A DNA stretch of 32,987 nucleotides, from positions 1 through 32,987 of the forward strand of contig JAGTQA010000011.1 of assembly GCA_018396975.1 (NCBI GenBank), given 5' to 3'. Positions 15,688 through 27,901 of this stretch are shown here, piece by piece. Position 1 is the first letter of the stretch. Every line of letters starts with the position of its first letter. The position numbers and the translations under genes are program-made. The notes beneath the pieces were generated by a model that saw only the letters and a program-made list of their open reading frames with translations, did not search any database and was not told the origin of the DNA. This DNA is from Candidatus Bathyarchaeota archaeon (lineage in GTDB: Archaea; Thermoproteota; Bathyarchaeia; Bathyarchaeales; DTEX01).

Positions 15688-17217
15688 TTGACCGAAAAGA
15701 TTGAGGAGCTACGCACAATAGATGAGATAAATGAGAAGATAAAGCGTGGAGATGCCGTCGTATTAACGGCTGAGGAGATGATTAAGCTCGTCGAGAGCAG
15801 CGGTCTAGAGGTCGCCGCAAAGGAAGTTGATATAGTTACGACTGGAACATTTGGGGCGATGTGTAGTTCAGGGGTCTTCCTAAATTTTGGGCACTCCGAT
15901 CCACCGATAAAGATGGCTAGGTGCTGGCTTAATGATGTCCCAGTCTATAAGGGACTTGCGGCCGTAGATGGCTATTTGGGAGCAACTGCCATGAGTGAGA
16001 CTAGGGGGTTCGAGTATGGCGGAGGCCACGTTATAGAAGACCTAGTGTCGGGTAAGGAGGTTGTTTTAAGGGCTGAATCCTATGGGACAGACTGCTATCC
16101 AAGGCGGCATATAGAAACAACCATAACGCTTGAGGACTTAAATCAGGCAATACTCGTCAATCCAAGAAACTGCTATCAGAGGTATGATGCGGCCACAAAC
16201 AGCTCTGACAGGGTCCTATATACCTATATGGGGACGCTTCTACCAAATTATGGGAACATAACATTCTCCGGGGCTGGGCAGCTAAACCCCCTATGCAAAG
16301 ACCCGAACTATGAGACAATCGGCTTAGGAACCAGAATTTTCCTAGGCGGTGGAATAGGCTACATAATCGGTGAGGGAACCCAGCATAGTCCCGGAGCCGG
16401 ATTCGGAACCCTTATGGTTAAGGGAGACCTAAAGCAGATGAATAGCAGATACTTGCGTGGGGCCACATTCCACCGTTATGGAACAACACTCTATGTTGGC
16501 ATAGGCATACCCATACCAATAATAAATATGAGGGTTGCTAAAACCGCCGCCACAAGGGATGAAGAAATAACTGTCAATATACGCGATTACGCCGTGCCAA
16601 CCAGACCGGACCTAAGACCAGTCGTTAAGAAGACGACCTACGCTGAGCTCAGGTCTGGGAAGGTCTCCCTGAACGATAGGGATGTCCCCTCATCATCCCT
16701 ATCAAGCTATAAGATGGCTAGGGAGATAGCCGAAACCCTCAAAAAATGGATTCTTGAGGGAACATTCTTCCTAACGAAGCCCATTGAGCCGCTCCCAAGG
16801 CAGAGGGAGGTTAAGCCTCTTAGGGTTAGGGGGCGGGAGATCAGGGTTGGCGATGTAATGAGTCGGAACGTTGTAACGGCAAGGCCAAGCGAGGATATAA
16901 AGACTGTCGCATCCAAGCTGGTGGAGAAGGGTATAGACCATCTCCCAGTTGTTGATGATGAGGGGAGGTTAATTGGCATAGTAACTTCATGGGATCTGGC
17001 TAAGGCCATAGCCCACGACAAGAGGAGACTTGAGGAAATAATGACTAGGAGGGTTATAACGGCATTCGAGAATGAGTCCATAGATGTTGTCGTGCACAGA
17101 ATGGCCCAATACAATATATCCGGGGTTCCAGTCGTCGATAGACTAAACCATGTTATTGGAATCTTGACAACCGACGATATATCGAGGAAGGTTGTTGGTG
17201 GTGGGAGAGCCGTATGA
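15688..17217 (+). CDS. L-aspartate semialdehyde sulfurtransferase (DUF39 with two CBS domains)
   Basis: The product is the archaeal homocysteine-biosynthesis protein (MA1821 type), which makes homocysteine from aspartate semialdehyde and sulfide. The DUF39 part (residues about 1-360) has TTGTFGAMCSSGVFLNFGHS with C59, then GYLGATAMSETRGFEYGGGH, SYGTDCYPRR with C136 and NPRNCYQRYDAATNSSD with C162; C59 and C136 are candidates for the persulfide cysteines. Two CBS motifs follow (VGDVMSRNVVTARPSEDIKT and LEEIMTRRVITAFENESIDV), which usually bind adenosyl ligands and may provide feedback control. TTG 15688 is preceded by GGAGG with 8-nt spacing. The stop overlaps the next gene by ATGA. Members without CBS domains exist, so regulation is inferred. 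Confidence 0.93.
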   Translation: MTEKIEELRTIDEINEKIKRGDAVVLTAEEMIKLVESSGLEVAAKEVDIVTTGTFGAMCSSGVFLNFGHSDPPIKMARCWLNDVPVYKGLAAVDGYLGATAMSETRGFEYGGGHVIEDLVSGKEVVLRAESYGTDCYPRRHIETTITLEDLNQAILVNPRNCYQRYDAATNSSDRVLYTYMGTLLPNYGNITFSGAGQLNPLCKDPNYETIGLGTRIFLGGGIGYIIGEGTQHSPGAGFGTLMVKGDLKQMNSRYLRGATFHRYGTTLYVGIGIPIPIINMRVAKTAATRDEEITVNIRDYAVPTRPDLRPVVKKTTYAELRSGKVSLNDRDVPSSSLSSYKMAREIAETLKKWILEGTFFLTKPIEPLPRQREVKPLRVRGREIRVGDVMSRNVVTARPSEDIKTVASKLVEKGIDHLPVVDDEGRLIGIVTSWDLAKAIAHDKRRLEEIMTRRVITAFENESIDVVVHRMAQYNISGVPVVDRLNHVIGILTTDDISRKVVGGGRAV

Positions 17218-23870: not shown

Positions 23871-24311
23871 GTGGATTCTTCCTTGGATGAGGCTATTGAG
23901 GAGATAAGGGCGTTTGGTCATAGCCTAGTAAGAGCTACCCATAAGACAACATTTGAGGTGACGCGTGAGGATCATTTAACTGAGAGAGGTGATTGCATAA
24001 TAGCTGTCAAAGCCGATAAGGCTGCGAGGGATCTAAGCGAAAGGTTCAGAGATATTGCCAGAAGACCGAATGCCGAGATAATAATAATCATTGAGGCTAA
24101 TGGGGAGAGGGATGTTGTTAGAGCCTACGGGAGCCCAAGATTAACGCTGACCCATTCGATGGACATAGTTGTTAGGAAGAGCAGCTATGTATGCGCTAGG
24201 ACCGTGGCTATAGGGGCTGATAAGGCCGCATGCAACCTCTCAAGGAAGCTTATAGAGAAACTTAGGAATCCCCATCAAGAGGTGCGAATAATACTCTCAG
24301 CTAGAGCATGA
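23871..24311 (+). CDS. DUF371 domain protein, archaea-specific
   Basis: The 146-residue product matches archaeal DUF371: EAIEEIRAFGHSLVRATHKTT, FEVTREDHLTERGDCIIAVKADKAA, DIVVRKSSYVCARTVAIGADKAA and a basic C-terminus. The repeated ADKAAxxLS blocks (residues about 48-56 and 122-130) suggest an internally duplicated fold. The strand-rich pattern gives no catalytic motif that I recognise. Translation begins at GTG 23871. It is divergent from the phosphohexomutase, and a ThuA-like gene follows 57 bp downstream with its own TATA-like element. Function is unknown. Confidence 0.85.
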   Translation: MDSSLDEAIEEIRAFGHSLVRATHKTTFEVTREDHLTERGDCIIAVKADKAARDLSERFRDIARRPNAEIIIIIEANGERDVVRAYGSPRLTLTHSMDIVVRKSSYVCARTVAIGADKAACNLSRKLIEKLRNPHQEVRIILSARA

Positions 24312-24368
24312 AAATTACTAGAAAATTTTATTTCCCAAGGAAAAACCTACTCCTATATGTGATGAAAA

Positions 24369-25094
24369 ATGAGTATTAAGATAAATGTAACGGTCTGGAA
24401 CGAGTTCATTCATGAGAGGGAGGATCCGAAGGTTGCCAAGATATATCCGGAGGGAATGCATGCGGTCATAGCCAGATACTTATCTAGCCAAGGCTTTAAT
24501 GTTCGAGCTGCCATATTCGATGAGCATGAGCATGGATTAACCGAGGAGGTTCTCAATAATACCGATGTGCTGATATGGTGGGGTCACGTTGCACATGAGA
24601 GGGTCAGTGATGCAGTTGTTGATCGAGTGTATAGGCGTGTAACTCGGGATGGTATGGGCCTAATAGTCCTACACTCCGGGCATCTCTCAAAGATTTTTAG
24701 GCGTCTGCTTGGGACATCATGTGAGCTTAAGTGGAGGGAGGCTGGGGAGAAGGAGCGTGTATGGGTTGTTGCAGGCGGCCATCCGATCACTGAAGGTCTA
24801 GGAGATTATTTTGAGATTGAGCGGGAGGAGATGTATGGGGAGCCCTTTGATATTCCACCCCCTGACGAGCTGATATTTATAAGCTGGTTTAAGGGTGGTG
24901 AGGTCTTTAGGAGCGGATGCTGCTTCTATAGGGGGCTTGGCAAAATATTCTATTTCCGGCCGGGGCACGAGAGCTACCCAACATACTATAATCCAGATGT
25001 CCTCAGAGTCATCAGTAACGCTGTTAGATGGTGTGCGCCAGTTAAGAGACCTAGGCCAGTAATGGGTAATGTGAAGCCTCTCGAGCCTCTTTAG
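24369..25094 (+). CDS. ThuA-like domain protein
   Basis: The flavodoxin/amidotransferase-like ThuA fold is shown by [34 protein letters not shown] (in consecutive parts), [57 protein letters not shown] and [21 protein letters not shown]. ThuA was named for trehalose utilisation in rhizobia and is thought to act on keto-disaccharides. Here it might act with the GH3 enzyme in sugar metabolism, but the two genes are 10 kb apart. A TATA-like AAATTTTATTT near 24330 and GTGATG before the ATG support an independent start. The reaction is uncertain. Confidence 0.88.
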
Positions 25095-25112
25095 CGATCA
25101 AGCACGCAACCC

Positions 25113-25125
25113 TATTATATTTATA
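25113..25125 (+). promoter_or_regulatory. TATA box of the orc1/cdc6-like gene
   Basis: TATTATATTTATA is centred near 25119, predicting transcription from about 25145. This is downstream of the first in-frame TTG (25129) and so favours TTG 25159 as the start. Confidence 0.5.
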
Positions 25126-25158
25126 GGTTTGTATCCCAATATATTTTGGGTTAGAATC

Positions 25159-26340
25159 TTGCCCGAATCCCTAATCTTTAAGGATAGGAATAAGCTCTCA
25201 CCATACTACATTCCTAAGCGCCTACCCCATAGGGACCAGCAGATAAATACACTACTATCGATTTATGGTCCCCTTTTAAAGGATATCTGGAGATCTTATC
25301 CGCGCTTCATTCAGATAGTTGGCCCAACTGGGACGGGCAAGACTTGCACAACAATTAGGTTCGGTGAATTGATCGCTGAGAGGGCGCGGAAGGAGGGCAT
25401 CAACCTACAATTTGTCTACATGAACTGTAAGGTTGATGGAACCACGCGGTATGTCCTCTATAGTAACTTGGTTAGGAAGATTACGCCTAAACTATCGGTT
25501 AGGAGCTTAAGCCCTGAAGAGATGATTAGGCAGCTCATCGAATACTTGAGGTTTGAGGAGATATTTCTTATAGTGGCATTCGACGAGATAGACTATTTTG
25601 TTCAGATGAGCCCAAAGGAGCATATAATATATGATCTGACACGCATACCGGAATTCCATCCGGGTGAAACAACACCGGTCATCGGCGAAATATTTATTGC
25701 TAGATCTCTTAAGTGGCATGATCTACTCGAGTCCGGTGAGAGATCCACCCTTGGAGCTGGCATAATAGAGTTTCCAAGATATACGAGCGGGCAGATTAGG
25801 GATATTCTTGAGGATAGGGTTGGGGAGGCTTTCCAACCCCACGCAGTCCCAGATGAGACTCTTGACCTAATAAGTGATATAACAGCTGGACCGCCAGTTA
25901 ATGGTGATGTTAGGGTTGGGCTTGAACTCCTATATTACTCTGGCATTTTAGCCGAGAACATGGGGTCAAGAAAGGTTTTGCCTGAACATGTTAGGAAGGT
26001 TTATAGTGGCATAAATCCAACCATAACAGCCGAGGATATAATAAGCCTAAGCAACGATGGTAGGCTCATACTCTTAGCCCTAGTTAGAGGCTTAAGGGCG
26101 AGCGGCTCGGCTTATATAAGCCTAAGGGAGCTACGGAAATTCTACCATATTGTATGTGAGGAATATGGTGTCAAACCCGTGGAGGATTTTGAGGCTCAAG
26201 TCCAAGATTTGATCTACCGCGGAATAATCGACATGAAATCCTTAATGGAGATTGGGATCTCTGGAGCCGCGGCAATAGACCTAGAGAAATTCCTAAATAA
26301 TCTTTTAGGTCAGCTTGAGCGTAGAGAGCGGGGGATATGA
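25159..26340 (+). CDS. Orc1/Cdc6-type AAA+ ATPase, divergent
   Basis: The N-terminus ESLIFKDRNKLSPYYIPKRL plus PHRDQQI is the standard archaeal Orc1/Cdc6 entry motif. Walker A is GPTGTGKT, Walker B is LIVAFDEIDYF, the arginine-finger region is GERSTLGAG, and sensor 2 is GDVRVGLELL. A C-terminal winged-helix region follows (about residue 300 to the end). The sensor-1 segment is unusual: family members typically read ISNDLKF, while here the aligned segment is IARSLKW, without the polar Asn. The winged-helix wing also lacks the usual basic hairpin. It may therefore be a regulatory paralogue rather than the main initiator. It overlaps the next gene by ATGA. TTG 25129 would add 10 residues. No clear origin repeats lie directly upstream, where only 64 bp are free. 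Confidence 0.88.
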   Translation: MPESLIFKDRNKLSPYYIPKRLPHRDQQINTLLSIYGPLLKDIWRSYPRFIQIVGPTGTGKTCTTIRFGELIAERARKEGINLQFVYMNCKVDGTTRYVLYSNLVRKITPKLSVRSLSPEEMIRQLIEYLRFEEIFLIVAFDEIDYFVQMSPKEHIIYDLTRIPEFHPGETTPVIGEIFIARSLKWHDLLESGERSTLGAGIIEFPRYTSGQIRDILEDRVGEAFQPHAVPDETLDLISDITAGPPVNGDVRVGLELLYYSGILAENMGSRKVLPEHVRKVYSGINPTITAEDIISLSNDGRLILLALVRGLRASGSAYISLRELRKFYHIVCEEYGVKPVEDFEAQVQDLIYRGIIDMKSLMEIGISGAAAIDLEKFLNNLLGQLERRERGI

Positions 26341-26651
26341 GGAGCAGAGAGTTAAAAGAGCGAACTATATGGGAGGAACTTGAAGTCGGATTAGGTGGGG
26401 GCAAAAAGTTTAGGGTTCTAGCACACTTGCTTCTAAATCCTGATAAAGCCTTCACCAAATACTCTCTGGTTAAGGCCACAGGCTTAAGGACCCCCTCGGT
26501 AGATAGGAGACTTAAGGTTTTGGTAGAATTGGGATGGGTTAGGGAGAATCAGTTTAAGCCCAAAACATACCAGATTAACTCTGAGAATGAAATAGTAAAG
26601 CTCCTCATAGAACTCTTTCAGAAGCTGCGCAAGTATAAGTGTCTAGGCTGA
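26337..26651 (+). CDS. Small winged-helix protein paired with the Orc1/Cdc6-like gene
   Basis: The 104-residue protein has a winged-helix pattern: KKFRVLAHLLLNPDKAFTKY, SLVKATGLRTPSVDRRLKVL as helix-turn-helix, and ELGWVRENQFKPKTYQI as the wing. A C-terminal amphipathic helix (VKLLIELFQKLRKYK) could dimerise. It overlaps the Orc1/Cdc6-like gene by 4 bp, so the two are translated together and probably act together, for example as DNA-binding partner. The class is clear; the target is unknown. A hairpin and C-rich tract follow directly after its stop. Confidence 0.82.
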   Translation: MRSRELKERTIWEELEVGLGGGKKFRVLAHLLLNPDKAFTKYSLVKATGLRTPSVDRRLKVLVELGWVRENQFKPKTYQINSENEIVKLLIELFQKLRKYKCLG

Positions 26652-26690
26652 GAGGGCTGACCCCCCTCCCCCCACCTAATCTTTCACAGA
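26652..26690. other. GC hairpin and C-rich tract after the winged-helix gene
   Basis: GAGGG (26652-26656) can pair with CCCTC (26664-26668), leading into CCTCCCCCCACC. Read on the minus strand the segment is TCTGTGAAAG, a short spacer, then a G-rich run. This weakly resembles the layout of archaeal origin recognition boxes (a TGGAAA-like core followed by a G string). It could equally be a terminator hairpin. Only one copy is visible. Confidence 0.25.
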
Positions 26691-26736
26691 CATCTTAAAT
26701 ATCACCTACTCCAGAGAGTATTTTGGCGCTTAGGAA

Positions 26737-26952
26737 ATGGTTAAGTCGAGAAGAGAGCACATACCCAAAATTAACACCAATGCATTCCTTAGTGGGGACT
26801 CCACAGTTGAGCACTGCTTAAACCCATGGAATGGTGAGTGCAGAAGCACTGATATAGCCATCTATATTATGTATAAGGGTGAGAGAATCCCCCTATGCTG
26901 GAAGTGTTGGAGGGAGATCTCGAGAAAAAATATTGTTTGGGAGGTATGGTAA
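26737..26952 (+). CDS. Small zinc-binding protein upstream of radA
   Basis: The 71-residue protein contains four cysteines in two pairs, CLNPWNGEC (27, 35) and CWKC (54, 57), which suits one structural zinc ion in a treble-clef-like or ribbon fold. The segment between them (STDIAIYIMYKGERIPLCW) predicts two strands. I recall similar small proteins in other archaea, but no function is known to me. It ends one base before the radA start, so it is probably co-transcribed and may serve RadA or DNA repair. A TATA-like CTTAAATATC near 26699 gives a short leader. Confidence 0.82.
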   Translation: MVKSRREHIPKINTNAFLSGDSTVEHCLNPWNGECRSTDIAIYIMYKGERIPLCWKCWREISRKNIVWEVW

Positions 26953-26953
26953 C

Positions 26954-27901
26954 ATGGATGATTTAGAGGCTTTGGAGGGTGTTGGAGCAGCCATAGCATC
27001 AAAGCTTAGGGCCGCGGGTTACACGACGATTGAGGCTATAGCGGTTACCCCACCGCTCGAGATAATGGAGAAGACGAATTTAGGCTTTAACACTATACTT
27101 AAGATTCAAGAGGCAGCTCGTAGGATGCTCTCAGCGGACTTCAAGACGGCCCAAGAATATTATGAAGTTAGGAGGAATATGAGGCGCTGCACTACTGGGT
27201 GCAAGAGTCTCGATGATATTCTTGGCGGTGGAATAGAGACCCAAGCCATAACTGAGCTTATAGGTGAGTATGGCTCTGGAAAGACGCAAATATGTATGAT
27301 GCTCTCTGTGACCGCGCAGTTACCTTCCGAAAGGGGTGGACTTGACGGCAGGGTCGCTTTCATAGATACTGAGGGAACATTTATGCCCGAGCGGGTATAT
27401 CAGATAGCGTCTGGTTTAGGGCTTAATCCAAAGGAGATTGCAAATAACATTCTCGTTGCGAGGGCTTATAATAGTAGCCACCAATGCCTACTCATAGATA
27501 GGCTATTTACGCTGTGTCCTGAGAATAACATAAAACTGGTTGTTGTTGATAGCATGATAAGCCACTTTAGGGGCGAATATATTGGGCGGGAGACCCTATC
27601 AGATAGGCAGCAGAAGCTGAACCAGTATCTGCATAAGCTGCTTAGGCTCGCGGAAGCCTACAACCTAGCCGTGGTTATAACAAACCAGATTCAGGCGAAT
27701 CCGACACCATTTACTGGCGAGCCCATGAGGCCGGCTGGCGGAAACATTATGGCCCATGCATGCACACATAGGATTTTCCTGAGGAGGGGCTCGAAGGGGA
27801 TTAGGATTGCTAAGGTTATTGATAGTCCATATCTACCCGAGAGAGAAGCCTACTTCATGATAACCGAGAAGGGCATTGTTGACGCTGAGGAGGAGAAGTA
27901 G
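26954..27901 (+). CDS. radA: RadA recombinase
   Basis: The product has the N-terminal helix-hairpin-helix domain (EALEGVGAAIASKLRAAGYT), the polymerisation and linker region, and the RecA core. Walker A is GEYGSGKT (residues 104-111), Walker B is KLVVVDSM, and the DNA-binding loops lie in HFRGEYIGRETLSDRQQKLN and TNQIQANPTPFTGEPMRPAG. It forms filaments on single-stranded DNA and performs strand exchange. ATG 26954 is chosen because GGGAGGT precedes it by 8 nt and because the upstream extension from 26879 overlaps the zinc protein without RadA similarity. At 315 residues it is slightly short but complete. It is convergent with sua5, only 5 bp between stops. Confidence 0.96.
   Translation: MDDLEALEGVGAAIASKLRAAGYTTIEAIAVTPPLEIMEKTNLGFNTILKIQEAARRMLSADFKTAQEYYEVRRNMRRCTTGCKSLDDILGGGIETQAITELIGEYGSGKTQICMMLSVTAQLPSERGGLDGRVAFIDTEGTFMPERVYQIASGLGLNPKEIANNILVARAYNSSHQCLLIDRLFTLCPENNIKLVVVDSMISHFRGEYIGRETLSDRQQKLNQYLHKLLRLAEAYNLAVVITNQIQANPTPFTGEPMRPAGGNIMAHACTHRIFLRRGSKGIRIAKVIDSPYLPEREAYFMITEKGIVDAEEEK

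Follow-up and report, generated by a model that had tools for sequence, protein, structure and literature searches.

The question raised by this locus is what an Orc1/Cdc6-type AAA+ ATPase does without the basic wing of its winged-helix domain, and why its gene is joined to that of a separate, small winged-helix (wHTH) protein. Both genes lie in the window, the whole stretch of 32,987 nucleotides of Candidatus Bathyarchaeota DNA that was analysed. The ATPase gene (25159–26340) starts with TTG and encodes 393 amino acids, and a separate open reading frame for a partner of 104 amino acids runs from the ATG at 26337 to 26651, giving the ATGA overlap claimed in the preliminary description of this DNA. 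Downstream are the genes for a Cys-rich protein of 71 amino acids (26737–26952) and a RadA paralogue (26954–27901); these four genes and the motifs given below are all on the forward strand. A DUF371 gene (23871–24311) and a ThuA-domain gene (24369–25094) precede the pair. The pair is a conserved, non-canonical Orc1/Cdc6–wHTH unit, and the role that we infer for it would lie away from ORB origins.

The ATPase and its missing wing

The window ATPase is a member of the orc1/cdc6 subfamily TIGR02928 (224.4 bits, cut-off 181.3), falls below the cut-off of the ORC1-type equivalog NF001623 (234.2 bits, cut-off 311), and contains Cdc6_lid and Cdc6_C domains that both score above their Pfam cut-offs. 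The top structural match of its AF2 model (pLDDT 89.3) is the P. aerophilum Cdc6 (1fnn; VIA Z 37.6, rmsd 3.0 over 370), which likewise has no Asn in the sensor-1 column, but which has a basic wing segment of 23 residues and groups in the tree with the winged paralogues described below. Canonical Orc1/Cdc6 proteins (2qby_A, 2v1u) share with the window ATPase the AAA+ core, the lid, Walker A and B, the sensor-2 Arg and the overall fold, whereas they differ from it in having Asn at sensor 1, a box VII of the DPRV type and a basic wing. A second, canonical orc1/cdc6, for which the preliminary description recommended a search, is present on another contig of the same genome and encodes ISNDLKF and a basic wing; the two proteins are 29% identical. 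Alignment with this copy bears out the reported divergence of sensor 1, which reads IARSLKW (25696–25716) in the window ATPase, with Arg replacing the canonical Asn.

By alignment, these proteins fall into three classes. Canonical copies combine an Asn sensor 1 with a basic wing, winged paralogues have Arg or Lys at sensor 1 and mostly a basic wing, and the third class is that of the wingless paralogues, to which the window ATPase belongs. One of the 12 canonical copies is a haloarchaeal plasmid gene (L304), and the 81 wingless open reading frames are distinct by their last 250 residues, with a few fragments or repeats (L245 equals L023) and many close kin among them. Every one of the 76 wingless rows with the sensor-1 column has Arg or Lys there (71 Arg, 5 Lys; five rows are without it), as do the winged paralogues (44 Arg, 4 Lys, one without the column), while two solved relatives carry His (1fnn) and Ser (1w5s). 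In this alignment, a basic sensor 1 is a trait of the whole non-canonical paralogue class rather than a peculiarity of the window protein, and a tie between the sensor-1 Arg and wing loss was rejected because the winged paralogues share it.

The further claim that four other ATPase motifs are kept holds in the alignment for Walker A (GPTGTGKT, residues 55–62, 25321–25344), Walker B (FDEID, residues 141–145, 25579–25593) and the GDxR Arg of sensor 2 (GDVR, 25903–25914), but not for the arginine finger. The canonical box-VII Arg of DPRVxSTL is Gly in the ESGERSTLG of the window protein (25729–25755). Two residues past this Gly stands an Arg, at the site of an Arg in many winged paralogues; some members of the window's family have Lys in this column, and the rest of the wingless clade mostly Leu. 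Given Arg at sensor 1 and the loss of the box-VII Arg, the ATPase may hydrolyse ATP weakly or not at all.

The absence of the basic hairpin, also noted in the preliminary description, was confirmed. The truncated wing, RGIIDMKSLMEIG (26218–26256), has 13 residues, eight fewer than the 21 of the canonical copies and most winged ones, and is modelled by AF2 as strands 358–361 and 364–366 with a two-residue turn between them. Across the aligned wingless copies, from the order of the window genome and beyond, the segment is 12–13 residues long. The recognition helix and wing read TQRR-type and GRYG(K/R) in canonical copies and mostly HTQ-type and RG(K/R)T in winged paralogues; among 35 wingless representatives neither combination was found, and the recognition helix is often acidic. 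The median net charge falls from +3 in canonical copies to +1 in winged and −3 in wingless paralogues for the winged-helix domain, and from +5 to +3 and 0 for the wing. The region of the initiator-specific motif is nevertheless retained in the alignment, and the AAA+ domain may thus have kept some ability to bind DNA. Two loci (L043 and L045) represent a rarer Orc1/Cdc6 type with a wing segment of 16 residues and an ISRS sensor 1, one of them with a weak match to the wHTH profile 76 bases downstream.

A quick tree built on 89 rows puts the canonical copies in a single group (support 97) and 32 of the 35 wingless rows in one clade (SH-aLRT 100), the other three falling elsewhere with unsure placement. 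On these alignments and this tree, the wingless paralogues mark a narrower, well-supported clade, characterised by a hairpin shorter by eight residues, no basic wing and a changed recognition helix. A single wing-loss event was not accepted, as up to three changes of the wingless label are needed and the three stray rows are poorly placed. The nearest named relatives of the window ATPase are Candidatus Bathyarchaeota MAGs. When species genomes were scanned with the family alignment, 64 loci were found, including many from Nitrososphaerales and others from Methylarchaceae, Brockarchaeota, Culexmicrobium, Caldarchaeum and Thermofilaceae; the wingless clade occurs in all of these groups and in Bathyarchaeota. 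Among 299 sampled genomes of the phylum, 19 match the wingless alignment at 340 bits or more, and all 19 loci are wingless. At least two Orc1/Cdc6 matches were found in 15 of the 17 searched genomes that bear a wingless or related copy. One contig (G003, C1) carries two wingless pairs, L006 and L032, about 15 kb apart.

The winged-helix partner and the gene neighbourhood

The window partner matches MarR_2 marginally, at 27.1 bits (Pfam cut-off 27), with TrmB and others below their cut-offs, and Pfam matches among partners are to MarR_2, TrmB and HVO_A0261_N. Its AF2 model (pLDDT 88.7) predicts a wHTH whose C-terminal helix is long, and DSSP places a predicted recognition helix at residues 52–65 (26490–26531) of this model; structural matches are to regulators of the ArsR and MarR types, to Sso10a and to a centromere-binding plasmid protein. 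Partners are basic (median net charge +6, and +2 for residues 50–65), and positions 26 and 46 are Lys or Arg in all 49 compared.

Conservation of the gene pair, suggested earlier as a check, is extensive. A match to the partner profile lies downstream of 76 of the 81 wingless loci, mostly at −14 to +14 nt (range −53 to +166), and of 38 of 48 winged paralogues, a count that omits partner-less loci with less than 300 bases of downstream room (one of 49 winged), and of none of the 12 canonical copies. Five wingless loci are partner-less by profile, among them L219, where a different small open reading frame, HTH-like by eye only and with zero Pfam and NCBIfam matches, lies between the ATPase and RadA genes. 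The ten winged loci without a match include L042 and L097, one gene seen twice, in which the wHTH sits within a longer overlapping open reading frame. Two partners of winged paralogues scanned with Pfam are ArsR-like, and since the profile built on wingless partners also detects those of winged paralogues, the two sets are probably related. The presence of the partner beside wingless and winged copies and beside no canonical copy indicates that pairing with a wHTH is probably older than wing loss. It also argues that the partner is not simply a replacement for the wing, as the winged paralogues have a winged helix of their own that looks intact. Both the pairing and the Arg sensor 1 extend more widely than wing loss, and so neither results from it.

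Both genes are under purifying selection, with dN below dS for ATPase and partner alike in all 15 close pairs tried. Distances of ATPase and partner correlate across 45 loci (Mantel r 0.91), a correlation that shared ancestry alone leads one to expect.

The 71-residue protein between the pair and RadA is conserved, with orthologues in the equivalent cassettes of the window's family; it gave zero matches in Pfam and NCBIfam scans and is probably zinc-binding, judging from its CxNPWxxxC and PLCxxCW motifs. The window RadA belongs to the RadA model TIGR02236 (406.8 bits, cut-off 361.15). There are two full-length RadA genes in the 1.1-Mb window genome, sharing 50% identity and both above this cut-off, the second on contig C63 of G000 (L223). 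A RadA gene is found no more than 1.4 kb from 31 of the 81 wingless loci and within the examined flanks of 33, compared with none of 49 winged and none of 12 canonical loci; the count covers these flanks only, which vary in length (median about 1.5 kb for wingless and winged loci alike). Winged pairs of family f6 have RadA about 2.5 kb away, and winged pairs in G032, G038, G041 and G047 have a close RadA paralogue at about that distance; linkage to RadA is thus not confined to wingless copies. Across the window genome and 60 relatives, a RadA at least 64% identical to that of the window occurs in 30 of the 61 genomes. By our reading, a wingless copy is present in 24, of which 22 fall within those 30; the other two are G024 and G002, and in G002 the contig breaks off within the cassette. 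A single origin of the linkage was rejected on tree topology, as the RadA genes linked to wingless copies belong to at least three separate RadA groups. The neighbourhood is accordingly recurrent or has been repeatedly replaced, rather than being one inherited block.

Other neighbours vary by lineage. In Nitrososphaerales, the pair lies between trp genes and pyrG in all four loci read (the genes were named by model only in L132), with RadA about 5 kb off in two loci. In Methylarchaceae, a Hef-like helicase gene is directly upstream of the pair (L115, 1687–3780; 585 bits, below the cut-off of 610). The gene after the pair in L022/L113 is only remotely RadA-like (86 bits), and a different contig of that genome encodes a closer RadA paralogue. 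In Thermococcales, oriC is close to radA and cdc6 (PMC11005403), and proximity to RadA alone is therefore no proof of a role in recombination.

Origins, rival readings and proposed role

Upstream regions (700 bases) were scanned for mini-ORB-like sites, allowing up to two mismatches to a 13-base core that we take to be that of the mini-ORB. At least one such site was found upstream of 10 of the 12 canonical copies, including that of the window genome itself, compared with one of 81 wingless copies and none of 49 winged paralogues. One canonical locus has four matches against 0.10 expected, while the whole window has one (at 15835) against 0.71 expected, which is chance level. No ORB-type sites were found beside the window ATPase gene, and an origin near the pair was rejected, as repeats in 24300–27000 amount only to short two-copy families. 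Canonical copies of these genomes therefore differ from the wingless ones in having ORB-like sites beside the gene in most cases and no wHTH partner. By these sequence tests, the wingless Orc1/Cdc6–wHTH unit is not an ORB initiator. The earlier suggestion that DNA recognition has moved to the partner agrees with the lost wing and helix motifs of the ATPase and with a basic, conserved partner, but the accompanying idea of an origin binder was unsupported, the ORB-like sites being beside the canonical copy.

The reading that we prefer, and which is quite possibly correct though still tentative, is that the pair works as a split AAA+/wHTH module that does not depend on ORB and has MCM or initiation as its target, perhaps together with recombination. 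The ATPase, without the ORB contacts of its winged helix, and the small basic wHTH from the overlapping gene would make up a two-gene unit whose proteins act together. The wHTH, probably as a dimer, would form a complex with the ATPase and carry it to DNA, and at sites other than ORB origins the ATP-bound ATPase would then act on its presumed client, MCM, or on canonical Orc1/Cdc6.

Small wHTH genes within operons are frequently autoregulators. It is conceivable, if rather unlikely, that the partner is an ordinary ArsR/MarR-type regulator of its own operon and that the ATPase, as a paralogue, regulates canonical Orc1/Cdc6 by pairing with it or holding it back. The fold matches to ArsR and MarR repressors, the usual presence of a canonical client (at least two Orc1/Cdc6 matches in most genomes searched) and the lost DNA contacts and box-VII Arg would all suit such a regulator, but an autoregulator would not be expected to be the same across several archaeal classes while its neighbours change (RadA, trp/pyrG, moaC). 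The pair is unlikely to be the initiator of a second, non-ORB origin, at which the wHTH would read another origin sequence and the ATPase load MCM. An archaeal genome can have several initiators with distinct origins, with WhiP as a precedent (PMC4010727), and Walker A, Walker B and sensor 2 are retained; against this, the spacer 5′ of the window ATPase gene is only 64 bp, spacers 5′ of wingless genes are mostly short (some exceed 700 bp), and no conserved upstream repeat array was found in the window.

Descent from an integrated element is very improbable. Integrated elements of thaumarchaea can carry Orc1/Cdc6 (PMC6563490), but the viral contigs searched held no relative, the 15 plasmid matches listed of 392 are haloarchaeal at less than 29% identity, and three phage records are below 27%; a mobile origin was rejected on these searches. 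The position between trp genes and pyrG in the four Nitrososphaerales loci read and the selection on both genes also speak against it. That the ATPase is a decaying pseudo-initiator is scarcely credible, since for all its lost wing, Arg sensor 1 and missing box-VII Arg, the frames are open, the Walker motifs are intact and dN is below dS.

Two known systems offer partial parallels to the preferred split module, both compared here by published description. Makarova and colleagues (2014), who linked arORC2 to PolB2 and an inactivated RadA, proposed that initiation might proceed in another way (PMC4104785). There as here, a RadA-family gene is near an additional Orc/Cdc6; the differences are that the window RadA passes the model for active RadA, and that a wHTH gene takes the place of arCOG07300. 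WhiP, a winged-helix protein of Sulfolobus, initiates without ORB (PMC4010727), acting at oriC3 instead of Orc1/Cdc6, and is described as Cdt1-related (PMC4010727; PMC5333045). WhiP and the module proposed here would share a winged-helix protein tied to ORB-free initiation, but the partner here has about 100 residues and an ArsR/MarR-like fold, whereas WhiP is Cdt1-related and replaces Orc1/Cdc6 at oriC3. An Orc1/Cdc6–wHTH pair is not described in the literature titles and abstract openings searched, although an earlier account in print is possible.

That many uncultured archaea have a second, wingless initiator copy with a wHTH partner, frequently next to a gene for recombination, suggests that replication may be started or restarted without the standard origin. 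In a more specific form, which we consider distinctly improbable, wingless Orc1/Cdc6, wHTH and RadA would constitute a dedicated module for recombination-dependent replication. Strand invasion by the RadA paralogue would form a D-loop that the wHTH helps to hold, and the origin-blind ATPase would load MCM there, in the manner of bacterial restart loaders that act without origin recognition. Recombination-dependent replication has been described in some euryarchaea, in passages that do not address helicase loading (PMC11005403; PMC11880632).

The analysis provides a sequence rule, based on wing length and the sensor-1 residue, that separates origin initiators from paralogues placed under one family model. 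Furthermore, a conserved Orc1/Cdc6 that has shed its wing, has a wHTH partner and no ORB-like sites, and is often found beside RadA is a concrete candidate for helicase loading linked to recombination. If the recombination module were real, these archaeal classes would maintain separate Orc1/Cdc6 systems for ORB origins and for recombination-primed forks.
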